Source: Rhodothermus marinus
GTDB lineage: Bacteria; Bacteroidota; Rhodothermia; Rhodothermales; Rhodothermaceae
NCBI RefSeq assembly: GCF_009936275.1
Contig: NZ_AP019797.1
Span: 1-64,000, forward strand
DNA length: 64,000 nucleotides
Direction of reading: 5' to 3'
The stretch's first letter is position 1. Each line of letters begins with the position of its first letter. Under the pieces are notes generated by a model that was not told the origin of the DNA, did not search any database, and saw only the letters and a list, made by a program, of their open reading frames with translations. A program made the position numbers and the translations under genes. Shown one piece after another: positions 1-34,387 of this stretch.

Positions 1-1512
1 ATGGAGCGAACACCGGAGGCGATCTGGCATGCCTGTCTGGAAATCATCCGGGACAACGTCAGCCGGCAGAGCTTCAAGACCTGGTTTGAGCCGATCAAGC
101 CGGTCAGCCTGACCGAAGAAGACGACCAGATCAAGCTGACGGTCGAGCTGCCGAGCCGCTTCTATTACGAGTGGCTGGAAGAGCACTACTACAGCCTGTT
201 GCGGAAGACCATCACCAAGGTGCTGGGTCCCAGAGGGCGTCTGTTCTACAAGATCGTGATCGAGAAAGAGGACCCGCAGAGCGGTTTCGAGGGCATCTCG
301 GTCAACATGCCGGCCCATCCTCCGGAGACGACGACACCCCCGCCGCCGCCCCGCACACGTCCGGTTTCGCCGACCGTACCGCCCGGTACGCCGGAATCGC
401 CGGTAGAAGTCGCCGAGCAGGAGCCGCCCGTTCCCGCCAACCCCTTTGCGATTCCCGGCATCATCCGCAAGATTCAGGTCGACAGCCAGTTAGATCCGAA
501 GTACACCTTCGAACGCTTCATCGAAGGGGACTGCAACCGGCTGGCCCGCAGCGCCGCGCTGGCCATTGCGCAACAGCCGGGCGCGACCAGCTTCAACCCC
601 TTCCTGGTTTACGGTGGCGTGGGGCTGGGCAAGACGCACCTGATCCAGGCGATCGGCAACTATGCCCGCCAGCACGGCACGGCCGAAACGATCCGCTACG
701 TCTCCAGCGAACAGTTCACGAACGAGTTCGTGCAGGCCATCCAGCACAACCGGATCAACGAGTTTTCGCTGTTCTACCGGCACATCGATCTGCTGATCGT
801 CGACGACATTCAGTTTTTCGGCGGCAAGGAGAAGACCCAGGAGGAGTTTTTCCACATTTTCAATGCGCTGCACCAGACGGGCAAGCAGATCGTCCTTTCA
901 GCCGACCGGCCGCCCAAAGACATCCCCGGCATCGAAGAGCGGTTGCTGTCGCGCTTCCAGTGGGGACTGATGGCCGACGTGCAGCCGCCGGATCTGGAAA
1001 CGCGCATTGCCATTCTGCGCCGCAAGGCCGAGGACGAAGGCATCGAACTGGGCGACGACGTGATCGAGTTCATCGCGCATCACGTCAAGAGCAACTTCCG
1101 GGAGCTGGAAGGGGCGCTGCTCCGGCTGGTGGCACACGCGGCCTATCAGCGCCGGGACATCGACCTGGCACTGGCCCGCGAAGCCCTGCGCGACCTGATC
1201 AAAGAAAGCCGCGTTACACTGACCATCGACCAGATTCAGCAACTCGTCTGCGAATACTTCGACATTGCGCCCGACCTGATCCGCTCCAAGACGCGCAAGC
1301 GCGAGATCGTCCAGGCCCGCCAGGTGGCCATGTACTTCTGCAAGCAGTTCACGCAGCACTCGCTGAAGTCAATCGGACTCCACTTCGGTGGCCGCGATCA
1401 CTCGACGGTGATTCACGCCTGCCAGAGCGTGGAAAACCTCATGGAAACCGATCCGAAGTTCCGGGAAATAATCGAAGAGCTGCGGCACAAAATCTCGCTT
1501 TACAGCCGCTGA
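1..1512 (+). CDS. dnaA: Chromosomal replication initiator protein DnaA
   Basis: DnaA binds 9-bp DnaA boxes at oriC and melts the duplex so that the DnaB helicase can be loaded. The 503-residue product is of normal length. It has an N-terminal domain I (about residues 1-85), a proline-rich linker (about 105-150), an AAA+ ATPase domain with Walker A GLGKTH just after residue 205 and Walker B LLIVDDIQFF near 265, and a C-terminal DNA-binding domain ending with the DnaA signature GGRDHSTVIHA. The gene starts at base 1, so its promoter lies outside the window. dnaN follows after 57 bases. No dense DnaA-box cluster is seen inside or just downstream of the gene; the box cluster lies near 31.4-31.8 kb. 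Confidence 0.98.
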   Translation: MERTPEAIWHACLEIIRDNVSRQSFKTWFEPIKPVSLTEEDDQIKLTVELPSRFYYEWLEEHYYSLLRKTITKVLGPRGRLFYKIVIEKEDPQSGFEGISVNMPAHPPETTTPPPPPRTRPVSPTVPPGTPESPVEVAEQEPPVPANPFAIPGIIRKIQVDSQLDPKYTFERFIEGDCNRLARSAALAIAQQPGATSFNPFLVYGGVGLGKTHLIQAIGNYARQHGTAETIRYVSSEQFTNEFVQAIQHNRINEFSLFYRHIDLLIVDDIQFFGGKEKTQEEFFHIFNALHQTGKQIVLSADRPPKDIPGIEERLLSRFQWGLMADVQPPDLETRIAILRRKAEDEGIELGDDVIEFIAHHVKSNFRELEGALLRLVAHAAYQRRDIDLALAREALRDLIKESRVTLTIDQIQQLVCEYFDIAPDLIRSKTRKREIVQARQVAMYFCKQFTQHSLKSIGLHFGGRDHSTVIHACQSVENLMETDPKFREIIEELRHKISLYSR

Positions 1513-25045: not shown

Positions 25046-26135
25046 AGCGAAACAGGATCACGTCGCCGTCCTGCACGACGTAGTCGCGCCCTTCCGAGCG
25101 CATGGCACCGGCCTCGCGGGCGGCCGCTTCCGAGCCGTAGCGGATGTAGTCCTCGTAGGAGATCGTCTCGGCCCGGATGAAGCCGCGCTCGAAGTCGCTG
25201 TGGATAAGTCCGGCGGCCTGCTGGGCCCGCGTGCCCCGCCGGATCGTCCAGGCGCGCGCCTCCTTGGGGCCCACCGTGAAGAACGTGATCAATCCCAGCA
25301 GCTCATAGGCGGCCCGCACCAGCCGTTCCAGTCCGGGGCGCTCCAGTCCCAGTTCTTTCAGGAAGGCCCGCCGTTCTTCTTCGTCCAGTTCGGCCAGCTG
25401 GGCCTCCAGCTCCGCACAGATCACCACGACCTGCGCACCTTCCTTTGCGGCAATTTCCCGGACCGTGGCCACGTGCGGATTGCCTTCGCCCTCGGGTAGA
25501 TCCGACTCGGCCACGTTGGCCACGTACAGCACCGGCTTCACGGTGAGCAGAAAGAGCGAGCGCAGCCAGGGCGCTTCCAGATCGCTCACCGTGAACAGGC
25601 GCGCCGGAGCCCCGCTGCTCAGATGGTCACGCAGACGCTCGTAGAAGGCCAGCTCCTCACGCAGCTTCTTGTCGCCGCTTTTGGCGGCGCGGGCCGTCCG
25701 TTCGATCCGGCGCTCGACGGTCTCCAGATCCTTCAGCAGCAGTTCGGTCTGGATGATTTCGATGTCGCGGGCCGGATCGACCGAGCCGCTCACGTGCACG
25801 ATGTTCGGATCCTCGAAGCAGCGTACCACGTGCAGGATGGCATCCACCTCGCGGATATGCGCCAGAAACTGGTTGCCCAGCCCTTCGCCCTTCGACGCGC
25901 CGGCCACCAGGCCCGCAATGTCCACGAATTCGATGGTGGTGGGGGTCACTCTGGCCGAACCGGCCAGCTCGGCCAGCCGCTCCAGCCGCTCGTCCGGCAC
26001 CGGCACCACGCCCACGTTCGGCTCGATGGTGCAGAACGGATAGTTGGCCGACTCGGCGCCGGCCCGGCTGAGCGCGTTGAACAGCGTCGATTTTCCAACG
26101 TTCGGTAGCCCGACAATTCCACAGCGCAGCGGCAT
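25035..26135 (-). CDS. ychF: Ribosome-associated ATPase YchF (Obg family)
   Basis: Universally conserved P-loop NTPase that prefers ATP and binds ribosomes. The 366-residue product has the expected length and shows G1 [15 protein letters not shown], the switch region [20 protein letters not shown]3 [20 protein letters not shown], a helical coil, and the C-terminal TGS domain with [17 protein letters not shown] and [15 protein letters not shown]. It is divergent from a small outer-membrane protein gene. Confidence 0.97.
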
Positions 26136-28073: not shown

Positions 28074-30467
28074 ATGCCGCCGCTTCGCACCGCACCGCTT
28101 TTCTGGACGGCGCTCGGCCTGGTCCTCGGGATTCTGGCGGCCGACGCCTGGCCGATACCGGCCGGCTGGTGGCTGCTCGGCGCCGGTTGTACGGCAACGC
28201 TGGCGCTTGTCTTCCTTCTGGTGGATCGAAAACGTCGGGGCTCGGTCCCGTTGTGGCCGGTCCCGCTGCTGCTGAGCGTGCTACTTGTGGGGGCCGCCCG
28301 CCACCGGCTTCAGATGGCACCGCCGCCTCCTTTTCCGCTCGACACGACGGCGGTCGTGCTGGCCGGAGTTCAGAAAACGCCCGAAGCGACCGCGTACGGC
28401 CTGCGTTTTCCGGCGCGGACGCATCTGCTGCTGATCGGTCCCGACACGCTGCGCGCCCACGTGTTGCTCGACGTGCGCCTGGTAGCCGACAGCCTGCCGA
28501 CGCTCCGATGTGGATACCGGGCACTGCTGGGGGGACGCCTGGAGCCGCTCCGCGCCCCCCGCAACCCCGGACTGCCAGACCGCACCACGCAGTGGCGGCG
28601 ACAGGGCGTGGTCGCGCGCCTGGTGGTGGACGATCCCCGGCTCGTTCAGGTACTTGACGTCCGTCGCTGCTTTGCGGATCGGCTGGCCTCACTCCGGGAT
28701 TCGGTCGCAGCCGTGCTGCAGCAGTACATGCCCCGACCCGAAGCCCGGCACGTCGTGCAGGCCCTACTGCTGGGCGACCGCTCAGGGCTTTCCGCAGACG
28801 TTCGGAATCGACTCGGCCGCGCCGGTCTGGCCCACCTGCTGGCCATCTCGGGGCTGCACGTGCTGCTGGTGGGACTGGTGCTCTACGGCCTGCTTCGTCC
28901 GCTGCTGCTCCGACTGGGATTGAGCTGGTGGGTGATGGAGTGGACGCGCACCGTGCTGACGCTGCTCGTACTGAGCGGCTATGTGCTGCTGGCGGGCGCT
29001 CCGGCCTCGGCCGTCCGCGCCCTGGTGATGGCCGCGCTGTTTCTGGGCGCAACGCTGTTTCAGACGCCCCCACACCCCCTGAACGCGCTGGGCGCCGCGG
29101 CCGTCGTGCTGCTGCTGGCCGATCCGGCGCAGCTCTTCGAGCCGGGCTTCCAGCTCTCGTTTGCCGCCGTGATCGGACTGCTGCTGGGCTGGCTGCCCCT
29201 GCAGCAACGCCTTCCCGCCCTGTTCTTTCGTCAGCCCACATTTCGCTATCTGACCGGTACGCTGCTGGTGACGCTGACGGCCACGCTGGCCACGGCGCCC
29301 TTTGTGCTCTACCACTTCGGCTACGTGTCGCTGGCCGGGCTGCCGCTGAACCTTCCGGGCATCCCGCTGGCCGCAGGCGCGCTGGCGGGCGGTCTGCTCA
29401 CCGTGCTGAGCGCGCCGTTCAGCCCGACGCTGGCCGGGCTTTTTGGACATGCGGCCACGCTGTGCGCCCATCTGTTGCTGCAACTCGGCGAACTGGGACT
29501 CCGCCTGCTCCGTCCCTTCGTGTGGCACGTGCCCGAACCGCCCTGGTGGGTGCTGATCACACCTCCTGTCCTGCTGGGAATTCTGAGCAGTTCTTCCCGG
29601 GGACGTCGATGGTCCGGAACGGTCCTGCTCGGGGTGCTGGGTCTCGGTCTCTGGACAACACCACCCACGTCGCCCCATCTGGACGTGCTGTTTTTCGACG
29701 TGGGCCATGGCGATGCCGTACTGATTCGCGCGCCCGGCGGCCGGCACCTGCTGATCGATACGGGCGGCCGCTATGCCGGTCGTGTGGCCGCCGAAAGGAG
29801 CGTGCTGCCCTTTCTGCGCCGATACGGTATCGATCGACTCGACGCTGTGCTGATCACACACCCCGATGCCGATCACGCCGGCGGCCTCCCGCTGCTGCTT
29901 CGCCGACTTGAAGTCGGCCGTGTGCTCGATAGCGGCACGGCCGACTCCTCGGCGCTCTCGCGGGAAATCGCGCATCTGATCGACAGCCTCCGGCTTCCGC
30001 GCCGATCCCTTCAGGCCGGCGATACCGTTCGTCTGGATCCCGCGCTGGTGCTCCAGGTGCTGGCACCCGCGCCGAACGCCGGGGACCTCCCCGACAACGA
30101 ACGTTCCGTGGTGCTCCGGATGGTTTTCGGTCAGACGCGCTGGCTGTTTCTGGGCGACGCAGAACGCGAACTGGAACGCCAGCTCGTACGGGCCTATGGC
30201 AATCTGCTGGAAAGCGACGTGGTCAAGGTGGCCCACCACGGCTCCCGCACCAGTTCCACGCTGGAACTGGTCCAGCAGGTGATTCCGGAACGCACACACC
30301 CCGCCCGGGCCGTGATCAGCAGCGGCTGGCGGAGCGTCGACGATTCGGTCCGGGTCCGGTGGGAGCGTCAGGGGGCCCGGCTGTGGATCACGGCCGATTC
30401 CGGCGCGCTCTGGCTTCGCAGCGACGGTCGGCGGATCTGGCCGGTCGCCTGGCGCAGGGCTCAGTGA
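28074..30467 (+). CDS. comEC: ComEC/Rec2-type DNA uptake channel protein
   Basis: Inner-membrane channel that takes up single-stranded DNA in natural transformation. The chosen start (ATG 28074) gives 797 residues. It has N-terminal helices, a DUF4131 region (about 25-190), the Competence domain with many helices (about 225-500, including HLLAISGLHVLLVGL), and a C-terminal metallo-beta-lactamase domain (about 535-780) with FFDVGHGDAVLI, LLIDTGG, VLITHPDADHAGGL and VVKVAHHGSRTSS. All three parts are intact, so the strain may be competent. It overlaps the convergent stress-protein gene by 7 bases. Confidence 0.94.
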   Translation: MPPLRTAPLFWTALGLVLGILAADAWPIPAGWWLLGAGCTATLALVFLLVDRKRRGSVPLWPVPLLLSVLLVGAARHRLQMAPPPPFPLDTTAVVLAGVQKTPEATAYGLRFPARTHLLLIGPDTLRAHVLLDVRLVADSLPTLRCGYRALLGGRLEPLRAPRNPGLPDRTTQWRRQGVVARLVVDDPRLVQVLDVRRCFADRLASLRDSVAAVLQQYMPRPEARHVVQALLLGDRSGLSADVRNRLGRAGLAHLLAISGLHVLLVGLVLYGLLRPLLLRLGLSWWVMEWTRTVLTLLVLSGYVLLAGAPASAVRALVMAALFLGATLFQTPPHPLNALGAAAVVLLLADPAQLFEPGFQLSFAAVIGLLLGWLPLQQRLPALFFRQPTFRYLTGTLLVTLTATLATAPFVLYHFGYVSLAGLPLNLPGIPLAAGALAGGLLTVLSAPFSPTLAGLFGHAATLCAHLLLQLGELGLRLLRPFVWHVPEPPWWVLITPPVLLGILSSSSRGRRWSGTVLLGVLGLGLWTTPPTSPHLDVLFFDVGHGDAVLIRAPGGRHLLIDTGGRYAGRVAAERSVLPFLRRYGIDRLDAVLITHPDADHAGGLPLLLRRLEVGRVLDSGTADSSALSREIAHLIDSLRLPRRSLQAGDTVRLDPALVLQVLAPAPNAGDLPDNERSVVLRMVFGQTRWLFLGDAERELERQLVRAYGNLLESDVVKVAHHGSRTSSTLELVQQVIPERTHPARAVISSGWRSVDDSVRVRWERQGARLWITADSGALWLRSDGRRIWPVAWRRAQ

Positions 30468-31300
30468 TACAGAAACAGCGGCACCGTCGTCTTTTCGATC
30501 AGCGCCGAAGTCGAAGACCCGAACAGCAACTTCTTCAGACCGGTAGTCGCATAGGCGCCAGCGACGATCAGGTCGGCCTCAATTTCCTGTGCAAACGCTA
30601 CGATCGCTTCTTCCGGGTTATCACCCTTTCGAGCCGTCGTAGTCACCTTGAACCCGTGCTCCTGCAGGTATTCCTGCACGAGCGAGAGCATCAGTCGGGT
30701 TTCGGCCTCTTCATCGTCGTAGACGGTCAGCACTTCCACGCTTACTTCGGTACCGAAAGGCCTGAGCTGGGCGAAGCGCTGCATCGTACGGGCGGCCGTA
30801 TCGCTGCCGTCATAGGCGATCAGGACCCGTTGGATGGGTCGGTATTCGGTGCCTACGATGAACGAAGGGCCGACGCTTTCCCGAACCACCCGCACCAGCG
30901 TCCTGGTTTTTTCCTCCGGATGGCTGTAGAAGAAGTGCGGCTCCTTTCCCACGACGAGCAGATCGTGCACTTTCATATCCTCCAGGATGCGGCGGAAAGG
31001 CACGCCCTCGGCCACTGTATTGCGATGCCGGAGCCCTTCTTTTTCGGCCACGTCGTCGAATTCCTCGATCAGCCGACGGGCCACGGCCCGGGCTTCTTCC
31101 GTCATCTGCTCACGCAGCTTTTCGGCGTAGTACATGCTGCCGATGCCGCCGCCTCGCGCACTGGCTTCGATATGGCCGGTGTCCACGACGGCCAGGCCAG
31201 TGACGCTGGCATCGTGCTGACGGGCAAGCTCGGCGGCATACCGGACGGCAATGCCGGTGTCCGTATCGGGATCGAGAGCGACAAGAATACGCCGGATCAT
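30461..31300 (-). CDS. Universal stress protein with two UspA domains
   Basis: A 279-residue tandem UspA protein. The first domain starts IRRILVALDPDTDTGIAVRYAAELA, the second IQRVLIAYDGSDTAARTMQRFAQL near residue 155, and it ends with the nucleotide-binding type segment IVAGAYATTGLKKLLFGSSTSALIEKTTVPLFLYH, in which GxxxxGxxxxxxxGS residues are present. The start at 31300 is the first Met that fits the family. The gene faces away from oriC and is preceded by a consensus promoter. Confidence 0.9.
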   Translation of the reverse strand: MIRRILVALDPDTDTGIAVRYAAELARQHDASVTGLAVVDTGHIEASARGGGIGSMYYAEKLREQMTEEARAVARRLIEEFDDVAEKEGLRHRNTVAEGVPFRRILEDMKVHDLLVVGKEPHFFYSHPEEKTRTLVRVVRESVGPSFIVGTEYRPIQRVLIAYDGSDTAARTMQRFAQLRPFGTEVSVEVLTVYDDEEAETRLMLSLVQEYLQEHGFKVTTTARKGDNPEEAIVAFAQEIEADLIVAGAYATTGLKKLLFGSSTSALIEKTTVPLFLYH

Positions 31301-31333
31301 GGAGTCTGAACAGCTTGGTTCCGGTTGTGTGGC

Positions 31334-31364
31334 TAAAAGTACGAGTTTTCCCGGTTCCGGACAA
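31334..31364 (-). promoter_or_regulatory. Bacteroidota-type promoter of the universal stress protein gene
   Basis: On the minus strand TTG (complement of 31362-31364) and TACTTTTA (complement of 31334-31341) are 20 bases apart, with the start codon about 34 bases downstream of the -7 box. It lies at the left edge of the DnaA-box cluster. Confidence 0.6.
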
Positions 31365-31387
31365 ACAGGAAGGGGCGCCGGTGTTTC

Positions 31388-31786
31388 ATTCATCCACAAT
31401 GGATTTGTTTAAAAAATGTCGTCGTGTTGGTTTGTAGAAGGCTGTGGAAATGTGGATTTCGAAGTTGTGCACCGTGAAAAAAGTTGTTGTGGATAAAAAC
31501 CGGGGGTATTCCACAACGTTATGCACAGCGGCCGAGTAACCAAATCGTCACATCTGGGGAATCCAGGCCGGTTTCGGAGAAACAATCCACGTTTCCACAG
31601 CAATCCACAGCTAACGACTCTGGTTCAGCGTCTCGTTATCCACCGTTGTCCACATTGTGGAAGTGTGGGGAAAACCCGGGGAGAACGGGGGTAGTTATCC
31701 ACGGCTGTCCACACGGTGGATTTTTTCCCCGAATTATCCCCCGGGTTATCCCCGGCAATCCACAGGTAATCCACAGCGTGGATAAA
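31388..31786. other. oriC: Probable chromosomal replication origin (oriC) with a dense DnaA-box cluster
   Basis: A gene-free stretch of about 490 bases between the stress-protein gene and pgi. I count at least a dozen 9-mers matching TTATCCACA with 0-2 mismatches on both strands: a perfect box on the minus strand at 31488-31496; one-mismatch boxes at 31390-31398, 31519-31527 (TTATGCACA), 31636-31644, 31646-31654, 31695-31703, 31767-31775 and, minus strand, 31777-31785; two-mismatch boxes at 31451-31459, 31591-31599, 31601-31609, 31705-31713 and 31756-31764. An A/T-rich patch (about 31400-31420, GTTTAAAAAATG) at the left end could be the unwinding element. Base composition of the + strand changes from C-rich to G-rich across it. 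Confidence 0.85.
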
Positions 31787-31789
31787 AAC

Positions 31790-33085
31790 TCACGGTTTGC
31801 TGAGCAGGCGGTACATTTCGCGCTTGTAGGCCTCGACGCCGGGCTGGTCGAAGGGATTGACTTCGAGCAGATAGCCGCTGATGGCCACCGCGTGCATGAA
31901 GAAGTAAAGACAGGCGCCGAGTGATCCGGGTGCCAGGCGTTCGAGCCAGACGGTCGAGACGGGCACGCCGCCGTCGGCGTGGGCCTTGCGCGTGCCTTCG
32001 TAGGCTTTGCGGTTGACTTCCTGCACCGTACGGCCGGCCAGGTAGGCCAGGCTGTCGCGATCGTCGCCGGTATCCGGAATGGTCAGCGGTTCGGGTTCGC
32101 GTTCCACCATAAGGAACGTTTCGATCAGGTGCCGGCGGCCTTCCTGCACGTACTGGCCCAGTGAATGCAGGTCGGTGGAGTACTGGATGGCATCGGGGTA
32201 GAGACCTTTGCCCGCTTTGCCTTCGCTTTCGCCGAAGAGTTGCTGCCACCAGGCGCCGATGCCGCTCAGCCGCGGTTCAAAGACGGCCAGCAGTTCGATG
32301 GCGTAGCCGCGTTCGTGAAAGAGATAGCGCAGCGCGGCGTAATCGAGGGCCGGGTTGTCGGAAGCGCCGGTCAGGCGCTCGCACATCTCGACGGCGCCGT
32401 AGAACAGCGAGCGAATGTCGATGCCGGCCACCGCGATGGGGAGCAGTCCGACGGGCGTCAGCACCGAGAAGCGGCCGCCGACGCCGGGCGGGATGGCATA
32501 ACGTCGGTAGCCGAACGTTTCAGCCATGTCGTGCAGGCGGCCGCGGGCCGGATCGGTGGTGACGATGATGCGGCGGGCGGCGTCCGGAAAGCGGGCTTCC
32601 AGCCAGGGACGCAGCACGCGAAAGGCTAGCATGGTCTCCAGCGTGGTGCCGCTTTTGGAGATGACGTTGACATAGACCGACTTGCCTTCCAGATAGGCCA
32701 GCAATTCTTTCAGATAGCGGCCGCTCAGGTGGTGTCCGGCAAACAGCACCTCCGGGGTGATCGGGCGGCCGGTTTCGGGATCGACAGGGGGCCGGAATTG
32801 CGGGGCGAGCGCCTCGATGACGGCCCGGGCGCCCAGATAGGAACCGCCGATACCCAGACACAGGAAGACGTCGGCCTGCTCGCGAATCTCGGCGGCCGTG
32901 GCGTCGATGTCTTCCAGCAGGGCGTCGTCCGGCTGCAGCAGCAGGTCGCGCCAGCCGAGCATTTCATGGCCGGGACCGGTGCGTTCCAGCAGCATCCGAT
33001 GGGCTGCTTCCGCCCGCGGACGGACGGCCTCCAGATCGTGCGCTTCGAGGAAGGGCAGGGCGGTGGAAAGATCGTAGCGGATCAT
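31790..33085 (-). CDS. pgi: Glucose-6-phosphate isomerase
   Basis: Interconverts glucose-6-phosphate and fructose-6-phosphate in glycolysis/gluconeogenesis. The 431-residue product is of the shorter bacterial type. It shows DVFLCLGIGGSYLGARAVIEAL (phosphosugar binding), NVISKSGTTLETMLAFRVLR (SIS domain signature), PPGVGGRFSVLTPVGLLP (PGI signature 1), and the C-terminal NPFDQPGVEAYKREM (PGI signature 2). The chosen start gives MIRYDLSTALPF. It ends at the right edge of oriC and is divergent from moeA with a 78-base gap. Confidence 0.96.
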   Translation of the reverse strand: MIRYDLSTALPFLEAHDLEAVRPRAEAAHRMLLERTGPGHEMLGWRDLLLQPDDALLEDIDATAAEIREQADVFLCLGIGGSYLGARAVIEALAPQFRPPVDPETGRPITPEVLFAGHHLSGRYLKELLAYLEGKSVYVNVISKSGTTLETMLAFRVLRPWLEARFPDAARRIIVTTDPARGRLHDMAETFGYRRYAIPPGVGGRFSVLTPVGLLPIAVAGIDIRSLFYGAVEMCERLTGASDNPALDYAALRYLFHERGYAIELLAVFEPRLSGIGAWWQQLFGESEGKAGKGLYPDAIQYSTDLHSLGQYVQEGRRHLIETFLMVEREPEPLTIPDTGDDRDSLAYLAGRTVQEVNRKAYEGTRKAHADGGVPVSTVWLERLAPGSLGACLYFFMHAVAISGYLLEVNPFDQPGVEAYKREMYRLLSKP

Positions 33086-33163
33086 GGCGGCGTAAACACT
33101 GGCTGTGGGTTGTAACTTTATCTTTCGTAAGATCGGCTTTTTCTGTAAAGTCCACCGAAAATC

Positions 33164-34387
33164 ATGCGCGAATTTATTTCGGTCGAAGAAGCCCGAAGCA
33201 TCATTCTGGAGCAGGTTACGCCGCTGCCGGTCGAGCGCGTGTCGCTGGCCGAGGCGCTGGGACGGCGGCTGGCCGAGGCCGTGGTCAGCCGCGACGACAT
33301 CCCGCCGTTTCCAAATGCGGCCATGGACGGCTACGCCGTGCGGCTGGCCGATGTGCAGCAGGTGCCTGCGACGCTTCGGGTCGTGGCCGACGTGGGGGCC
33401 GGGCAACTACCACCCGCGTCGATTCCGCCGGGCGCCTGCATCCGGATCATGACGGGTGCGCCGGTGCCGGCCTGGGCCGAGGCGGTCGTGCCCGTCGAGT
33501 GGACCGAAGCCGGGGCGAACGGCACCGTGCGCATTTTGCAGGCGCCGGCCGCCGGCGAGAACATCCGTCCGGCCGGGCAGGACGTACGGGCCGGCGAGCG
33601 GTTCTTCGAAGTGGGCCAGCGCATCACGCCGCCAGTGGTGGCCATGCTGGCCACGCTGGGCGTGGCCGAGGTGCCGGTATTCCGGCGGCCCCGCGTGGCG
33701 ATCGTCGCGACCGGCGACGAACTCATCGACGCGGGCCAGCCGCTCACGCCGGGACACATCCGCGATTCGGCCGGACCCGGTCTGGCCGCCCAGGCCCGGT
33801 GGCTCGGGGCCGAGGTGGTGGGGCCGCTGCGGGTGCCCGATGATCGCGCTGCGCTGGAGCAGGCCGTCGAACAGGCACTCGAAGCCGACGTGCTCGTGTT
33901 TTCCGGGGGCGTCTCGGTGGGGCTGTACGATCTGGTCCGGCAGGTGCTCGACGGCCGCGGCACGCAGTGGCTTTTCTGGAAGATCCGCCAGCGGCCCGGC
34001 AAACCGATGGCCTTCGGCCTGCTGGAGGGCAAACCGGTCTTTGGTCTGCCGGGCAATCCGGTTTCGTCGGCGCTCTGCTTCGATCAGTACGTGGCGCCGG
34101 CGCTTCGCCGCATGCAGGGACAGCAGGAGGTGTTGCGACCGCGATTCCCGGCCGTGCTGGAGGCGCCCACACCGAAGAAGGCCGGGCTGCACTTCTACGT
34201 GCGCGGCGTGGCCCGTCCGGGAGGCGATGGCCGCCTTCTGGTGCGCGACACCGGACCCCAGGGCTCCAACCTGTACCATTCGATGGTGCGGGCCAACTGT
34301 CTGATTCACCTGCCCGAGGCGCTCGACGAAGCACCGGCCGGACTGGAGGTGGAAATCGAATGGCTTCCCTGGACGCTGGAGCCGTGA
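33164..34387 (+). CDS. moeA: Molybdopterin molybdenumtransferase MoeA
   Basis: Inserts molybdate into adenylated molybdopterin to form the molybdenum cofactor. The 407-residue product has normal length and shows the N-terminal ISVEEARSIIL, DIPPFPNAAMDGYAVR, IMTGAPVPAWAEAVVPVE, the MoaB-like domain with ATGDELIDAGQPLTPGHIRDS and VFSGGVSVGLYDLV, RQRPGKPMAFGLLEGKPVFGLPGNPVS, and a C-terminal beta domain. No other cofactor genes are adjacent, but a modABC molybdate transporter is encoded at 54.3-56.9 kb. Confidence 0.96.
   Translation: MREFISVEEARSIILEQVTPLPVERVSLAEALGRRLAEAVVSRDDIPPFPNAAMDGYAVRLADVQQVPATLRVVADVGAGQLPPASIPPGACIRIMTGAPVPAWAEAVVPVEWTEAGANGTVRILQAPAAGENIRPAGQDVRAGERFFEVGQRITPPVVAMLATLGVAEVPVFRRPRVAIVATGDELIDAGQPLTPGHIRDSAGPGLAAQARWLGAEVVGPLRVPDDRAALEQAVEQALEADVLVFSGGVSVGLYDLVRQVLDGRGTQWLFWKIRQRPGKPMAFGLLEGKPVFGLPGNPVSSALCFDQYVAPALRRMQGQQEVLRPRFPAVLEAPTPKKAGLHFYVRGVARPGGDGRLLVRDTGPQGSNLYHSMVRANCLIHLPEALDEAPAGLEVEIEWLPWTLEP

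Follow-up and report, generated by a model that had tools for sequence, protein, structure and literature searches.

A predicted replication origin between a universal stress protein gene and pgi, 31 kb from dnaA, in Rhodothermus marinus

Where does replication of the Rhodothermus marinus chromosome begin, given a crowded group of DnaA boxes between a gene for a universal stress protein (Usp) and pgi, far from dnaA? Among the literature matches listed, no title or abstract opening describes where replication starts in Rhodothermus or other Rhodothermales, and a computed DoriC entry may exist. The R. marinus genome paper carries GC skew as a map ring and names no origin in the text available (PMC3035238), the accessible portions of two further papers give none (PMC6060240, PMC6087703), and PMC6669920 yielded no match to four terms searched. 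Here, we describe a window of 64,000 nucleotides, the whole stretch of DNA analysed, which is the opening 64 kb of a genome (label G000) made up of one contig of 3,430,829 bp (NCBI RefSeq assembly GCF_009936275.1, contig NZ_AP019797.1). An earlier reading of the letters, hereafter the sequence-only reading, had placed a probable oriC beside pgi, about 30 kb from dnaA. From comparisons of sequence, we conclude that the usp-pgi intergenic region (31301..31789, no strand assigned, 489 bp, compared in seven genus sequences) is very likely the single chromosomal oriC of this Rhodothermus genome, with predicted DnaA binding at about 20 boxes and predicted opening at its usp-side end.

The region is bounded by the Usp gene (30461..31300, minus strand, Pfam PF00582), which would be the neighbour of the origin on that side, and by pgi, encoding glucose-6-phosphate isomerase (31790..33085, minus strand, NF010697 and PF00342), the start of which is residue 108 of the open frame listed at 31790-33406. 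The dnaA gene lies at 1..1512 on the plus strand (TIGR00362), and the gap, 31 kb away, does not flank it. If the origin is at 31.5 kb, dnaA transcription points at it, head-on to the predicted fork. The gap had been called the only long gene-free stretch of the window, which is probably not so, as other gaps of 345-609 bp appear in a rough gene call that may miss genes. A search of 30900-32200 for RNA elements (Rfam) returned a single match, scoring 18.7 against a gathering score of 117, and this was taken as chance.

DnaA boxes and predicted unwinding elements in the usp-pgi gap

The DnaA of the window has GGRDHSTVIHA in its DNA-binding domain (residue 463), aligned with the DNA-binding motif GGRDHTTVIHA of the solved DnaA chain 8btg, from which we infer that the consensus TTATCCACA is a fair choice. 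Scanned with this consensus, the 489-bp gap holds 9 boxes at ≤1 mismatch and 20 at ≤2 mismatches, compared with means of 0.14 (maximum 3 in 1000) and 1.6 (maximum 7), respectively, in first-order shuffles of the same gap. Within 31388-31786 there are 8 TTATCCACA-type 9-mers at ≤1 mismatch, namely the one perfect box and seven one-mismatch boxes that had been claimed, and 19 at ≤2 mismatches. The 64-kb window has 15 boxes at ≤1 mismatch, and 8 of the 15 fall inside this 0.6% of it. The genome-wide count that the sequence-only reading had proposed as a check gave 271 boxes at ≤1 mismatch (155 for the pattern read backwards), a density that predicts 0.03 boxes per 399 bp, so that the intergenic usp-pgi cluster stands far above chance.

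The perfect TTATCCACA box (31488..31496, minus strand) keeps TGTGGA in 7/7 aligned sequences. Box scan and genus alignment place further boxes toward pgi, all on the plus strand: two at 31507..31527 (2 and 1 mismatches), two 10 bp apart at 31591..31609 (2 mismatches each), two 10 bp apart at 31636..31654 (1 mismatch each), two 10 bp apart at 31695..31713 (1 and 2 mismatches), and four 10-12 bp apart at 31734..31775 (2, 2, 2 and 1 mismatches). A last box from the scan (31777..31785, minus strand, 1 mismatch) adjoins the pgi stop codon. Many box positions are kept across the genus in the alignment of seven sequences. Another candidate DnaA site, near genome position 3,136,081, has four boxes (≤2 mismatches) at 3,136,070-3,136,197 and was set aside as smaller than an origin-sized cluster.

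At the usp-side end of the gap lies a tandem pair of DnaA boxes in an 8-bp register (31443..31459, minus strand), the predicted loading platform for unwinding. Its core, TCCACATTTCCACA, occupies 31443-31456 on the minus strand, and the pair is the sole exact match to TCCACANNTCCACA in the 3.43-Mb genome. The pair is found beside a GC spacer and A/T-rich DNA, and next to the spacer are two DnaA-trio-like triplets (CTTCTA, 31435..31440, minus strand), of which many relatives have three or more. The predicted DNA unwinding element is the least stable 45 bp of the region (31384..31428) and contains TTTAAAAAA; scored with nearest-neighbour energy values, it has z = 3.5 against the window, yet 155 of the 63,955 windows compared are less stable. 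The A/T-rich patch pointed out earlier at 31400-31420 is 76% A+T, and the T/A run of the element is seen in the genus alignment too.

The basal unwinding system (BUS) of Bacillus subtilis-type origins consists of DnaA boxes, a spacer and DnaA-trios (PMC8287927), and the published rule for it requires three or more trios no further than 16 bp from a DnaA box (≤2 mismatches). No site in 31301-31800 of the window conforms to this rule, and the platform has two triplets only. Among the seven genus sequences, G002 and G003 alone conform to it at the tandem pair, and G004 and G006 give weak formal matches at other boxes. With only two triplets at the platform, we do not file the predicted origin as a strict BUS member; it looks like an eroded BUS origin.

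In the mechanism that we propose, DnaA would load on the tandem pair (31443-31459), spread along the trio-like triplets (31435-31440) and melt the A/T-rich DNA around 31384-31428; the helicase would enter at the melted patch, with forks leaving both ways. The pgi-side boxes, many of them paired about 10 bp apart, may hold the rest of the DnaA complex. A separate box array upstream of dnaA would control dnaA expression or titrate DnaA.

The usp/pgi address and its unwinding module among relatives

We collected 80 pgi loci and, judging from title or rank, placed 38 of them (L021-L056, L059 and L086) in the order; the titles include Rhodothermus, Roseithermus, Salinivenus, Longimonas and Rubrivirga, others being merely "Bacteroidetes bacterium" or "bacterium". 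After L031 and L086 (<200 bp of flank) were dropped, 33 of the 36 usable order loci had at least 9 boxes (≤2 mismatches) in the 900 bp beyond pgi, versus none of the 42 other pgi loci (maximum 8 boxes; three with flanks <900 bp). Three order loci fall short of 9 boxes: L055 has 6, L056 has none, and in L023 the cluster sits at a greater distance. Counted by genome, in a set that shares genomes with the 36 loci and hence overlaps them, 24/32 order genomes with a fetched pgi locus reach 9 boxes, and outside the order 0/19 do (maximum 8). Among the eight order genomes without 9 boxes within 900 bp, G032 is not judgeable (its contig ends 39 bp past pgi), G009, G010 and G025 have a module or cluster that is weaker or further out, and G008, G015, G022 and G033 are exceptions. 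The trio module of G025 (L317, L307; G025:C76) lies about 2.7 kb past pgi and directly adjoins a Usp gene. By these counts, a matching cluster is present at the usp/pgi address in most examined relatives of the order, and its position is conserved.

The exact TCCACANNTCCACA occurs in 18/36 order loci, and many of these carry next to it, in turn, a GC-rich spacer, trios of the CTACTACTA type and an A/T tract, a nearly textbook unwinding module. Scored by the published rule together with our own trio score, with 20 shuffles per locus, 21/36 order loci reach at least 5 on the pgi strand (shuffles never exceed 4) and 8/36 lack any site there that conforms to the rule; on the opposite strand L034 reaches 6 and L044 reaches 5. 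Trio tracts vary among these related origins, with four perfect CTA repeats in L055 at one extreme and hardly any at the other. The strict pattern TCCACANNTCCACAN{2,6}CTACTA matched once each in 14 of 60 genomes, with 0/60 for the reversed control; the window's own genome, one of the 60, has no match. Nine of the 14 matches lie 204-466 bp past the pgi 3' end, the other five adjoin the Usp gene, the best pgi match of those five genomes being either remote or at another place, and none of the 14 is within 20 kb of a listed dnaA match. A looser pattern, TCCACAN{2,6}CTACTA, was never commoner than its reversed control in six genomes (three Bacilli as positive control) and is therefore uninformative.

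Across the class, TCCACAN{2,6}CTACTACTA matched in 32/117 genomes (reversed control: 5 matches in 4 genomes), of which 13 are among the 59 of the order and 19 among the 58 outside it. Within the order, usp or pgi lies within 1.5 kb in 11/11 fetched loci, and in the other two genomes (G019 and G038) the module is beside pgi by coordinate. Of the 19 matches outside the order (L286-L304), which belong to family f18, 17 have both a purM-like gene and dtd within 1.5 kb, one has dtd only, and L290, which is nearly without boxes, has neither; no dnaA match was found within 1.5 kb of the 19 modules. The purM-like and dtd genes stand on opposite sides of the module in all four loci laid out (L286, L293, L298 and L303), and the L286 neighbours match Pfam AIRS and Tyr_Deacylase. 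This pairing of a trio module with purM-like and dtd genes in 17/19 matches suggests that in f18, too, the origin is probably away from dnaA.

GC skew at the gap, at dnaA and in relatives

GC skew changes sign at the usp-pgi gap, from -0.039 over 1-31,500 to +0.027 over 31,501-64,000. A change here had been read from two 60-base samples, the compositions of which are as given then (25861-25920, C 26 and G 16; 32521-32580, C 16 and G 29). With the 20 kb ahead of the window joined to it, the cumulative minimum looked for near 31.5 kb was found locally, at 31,161, some 230 bp away from the first box in the stretch originally reported. The curve keeps falling past dnaA with no turn, skew being -0.067 over the 20 kb that precede the gene and -0.039 over the 31.5 kb from there on. 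The chromosome as a whole was judged from 40 samples outside the window, and 37/40 agree in sign with a single origin at this site and a terminus near 1.67 Mb: 21/24 are positive between 74 kb and 1.67 Mb (negatives at 104, 284 and 324 kb), and 16/16 are negative between 1.68 and 3.43 Mb.

The close relative G004 has its skew minimum at 32,002 and the pgi 3' end at 32,634. Ten further relatives with dnaA and pgi on one long contig were hand-picked (G001, G012, G016, G017, G029, G033, G036, G038, G042 and G049), a sample that left out other such genomes, e.g. G023, G026, G047 and G058. Of these, 9/10 show negative skew ahead of the pgi site and positive skew beyond it, and 0/10 make that switch at the main dnaA; the exception at pgi is G036 (+0.008 to +0.021, no sign change), and G012 and G016 shift only slightly, by about 0.01. 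A short-flank test was entered by 32/36 usable order loci, omitting L023 and L056 (no cluster past pgi) and L038 and L059 (short left flanks), and by 28/42 controls. Flanks of 3 kb or more on either side were available for 28 of the order loci; 22 of these show skew rising over the cluster, and in 14 it passes from minus to plus. In the same test the 28 control pgi loci gave 11 and 2.

A recent inversion can shift a skew minimum. An old inversion of the dnaA-pgi segment could in that way explain the minimum found here, the box cluster being unrelated to initiation, but no analysis result points to one, the minimum is within about 230 bp of the box cluster, and the switch recurs at the same gene neighbourhood in several families with dnaA about 28 to 410 kb away; we give this explanation next to no weight. 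An oriC beside pgi, as originally proposed, is instead supported by box density, the skew minimum, the skew switches of relatives and the module at the same address. The relatives are the strongest evidence for the predicted usp-pgi origin.

The box array upstream of dnaA and comparison with known origins

The sequence-only reading had counted on there being no equally dense box cluster upstream of dnaA. On this point it stood in part: an array of six boxes at ≤1 mismatch, all in one orientation, does lie there within 244 bp (G000:C1:3430524-3430767), but no skew switch accompanies it. The boxes are laid out as three pairs in an 11-bp register, the pairs are kept in 7/7 genus genomes (in G001 two pair members have 2 mismatches), and the A/T-rich stretch between pairs is slightly less stable than 31384-31428. 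Replication could then start at dnaA, with the array at 3,430,524-3,430,767 opening and the pgi cluster serving as a titration or regulatory site, and such a location would agree with the usual flanking of dnaA by oriC (PMC4285127) and with the dnaA-dnaN origin predicted in related Melioribacter (PMC3534657). We nevertheless consider an origin at dnaA very unlikely, since skew is negative on both sides of the gene here and none of the ten relatives switches there, the window's genome has no unwinding module by the published rule over the 420 bp ahead of the gene, and none of the 14 strict matches is at dnaA. The array is, moreover, dense in the genus only, 21 other order genomes having 0-4 boxes (≤1 mismatch) in the 420 bp upstream of dnaA. 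The lack of both a skew turn and an unwinding module at dnaA leads us to read the array as a putative autoregulation or DnaA titration site, not a replication start; DnaA boxes accumulating near the E. coli origin have been argued to be a titration device (PMC12371093).

Many Rhodothermales genomes (G018, G028, G029, G038, G047, G058 and others) have two dnaA matches at distant places. As an independent locator, parS was tried: seven parS-like sites (≤2 mismatches) form two groups at G000:C1:3368574-3373879, at a distance of about 57-62 kb ahead of dnaA and 88-94 kb to the pgi site, and these favour neither place strongly and do not decide between them.

The dnaA array and the pgi cluster might also act jointly, as a bipartite origin whose spacer would be unusually long. 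Within the genus both arrays are conserved, and the dnaA-pgi distance is 27.8-32.5 kb in the five genus genomes with both on one contig (G000, G001, G003, G004 and G006), although this equal spacing may be plain synteny. Known bipartite origins extend to at most about 2000 bp, with dnaA usually as the spacer (PMC4285127). In other families dnaA and pgi can be as much as about 410 kb apart, and the dnaA array thins out. We consider joint action extremely unlikely.

With the preferred origin in the usp-pgi gap, 31 kb from dnaA and at the same address in most relatives, a search confined to dnaA would likely pick the wrong place. The warning that such a search would miss this origin was thus right, and dnaA-anchored searches can mislead all the more where, as here, dnaA itself bears an array that would act as a decoy. 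The usp-pgi gap is an origin candidate open to test, both in Rhodothermus and across much of the order, and the related origins offer a graded series of trio tracts. For the class as a whole, we tentatively suggest, while holding it somewhat doubtful, that the origin left dnaA long ago as a portable module (tandem boxes, spacer, trios and A/T tract) and took a lineage-specific home, at usp/pgi in one order and at purM/dtd in another family, that Rhodothermus dnaA keeps its array as a separate control site, and that Rhodothermus is now losing the trios. If so, trio loss in Rhodothermus would be a natural test of the minimal sufficient module.

An oriC away from dnaA is of an already known kind (PMC4285127, PMC6323995, PMC10225481). 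Like the BUS, as outlined in its published description, many relatives have tandem boxes, a short GC-rich spacer, CTA-type trios and an A/T-rich tract in the same order and polarity, and the window keeps the module order with its trios eroded. Unlike the Bacillus subtilis-type BUS origin, the predicted usp-pgi origin is not next to dnaA, and the window has two trio-like triplets only. It shares with the dnaA-distal origin of E. coli a gene context other than the dnaA cluster, and such distal contexts are described as conserved within bacterial groups (PMC4285127); the neighbours here, unlike those of E. coli-type distal origins, are the Usp gene and pgi. In Synechococcus lividus, oriC is likewise far from dnaA and dnaN (DoriC 10.0, PMC6323995), and both cases have a DnaA-box cluster away from dnaA. 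As that entry presents it, S. lividus is one named species set against the cyanobacterial habit of dnaN linkage, whereas here much of an order shares the address. A similar arrangement within the class is that of the probable origins of family f18, where a trio module is likewise surrounded by DnaA boxes and no dnaA match lies closer than 1.5 kb, the neighbours being usp and pgi here and, in 17/19 f18 matches, purM-like and dtd genes.
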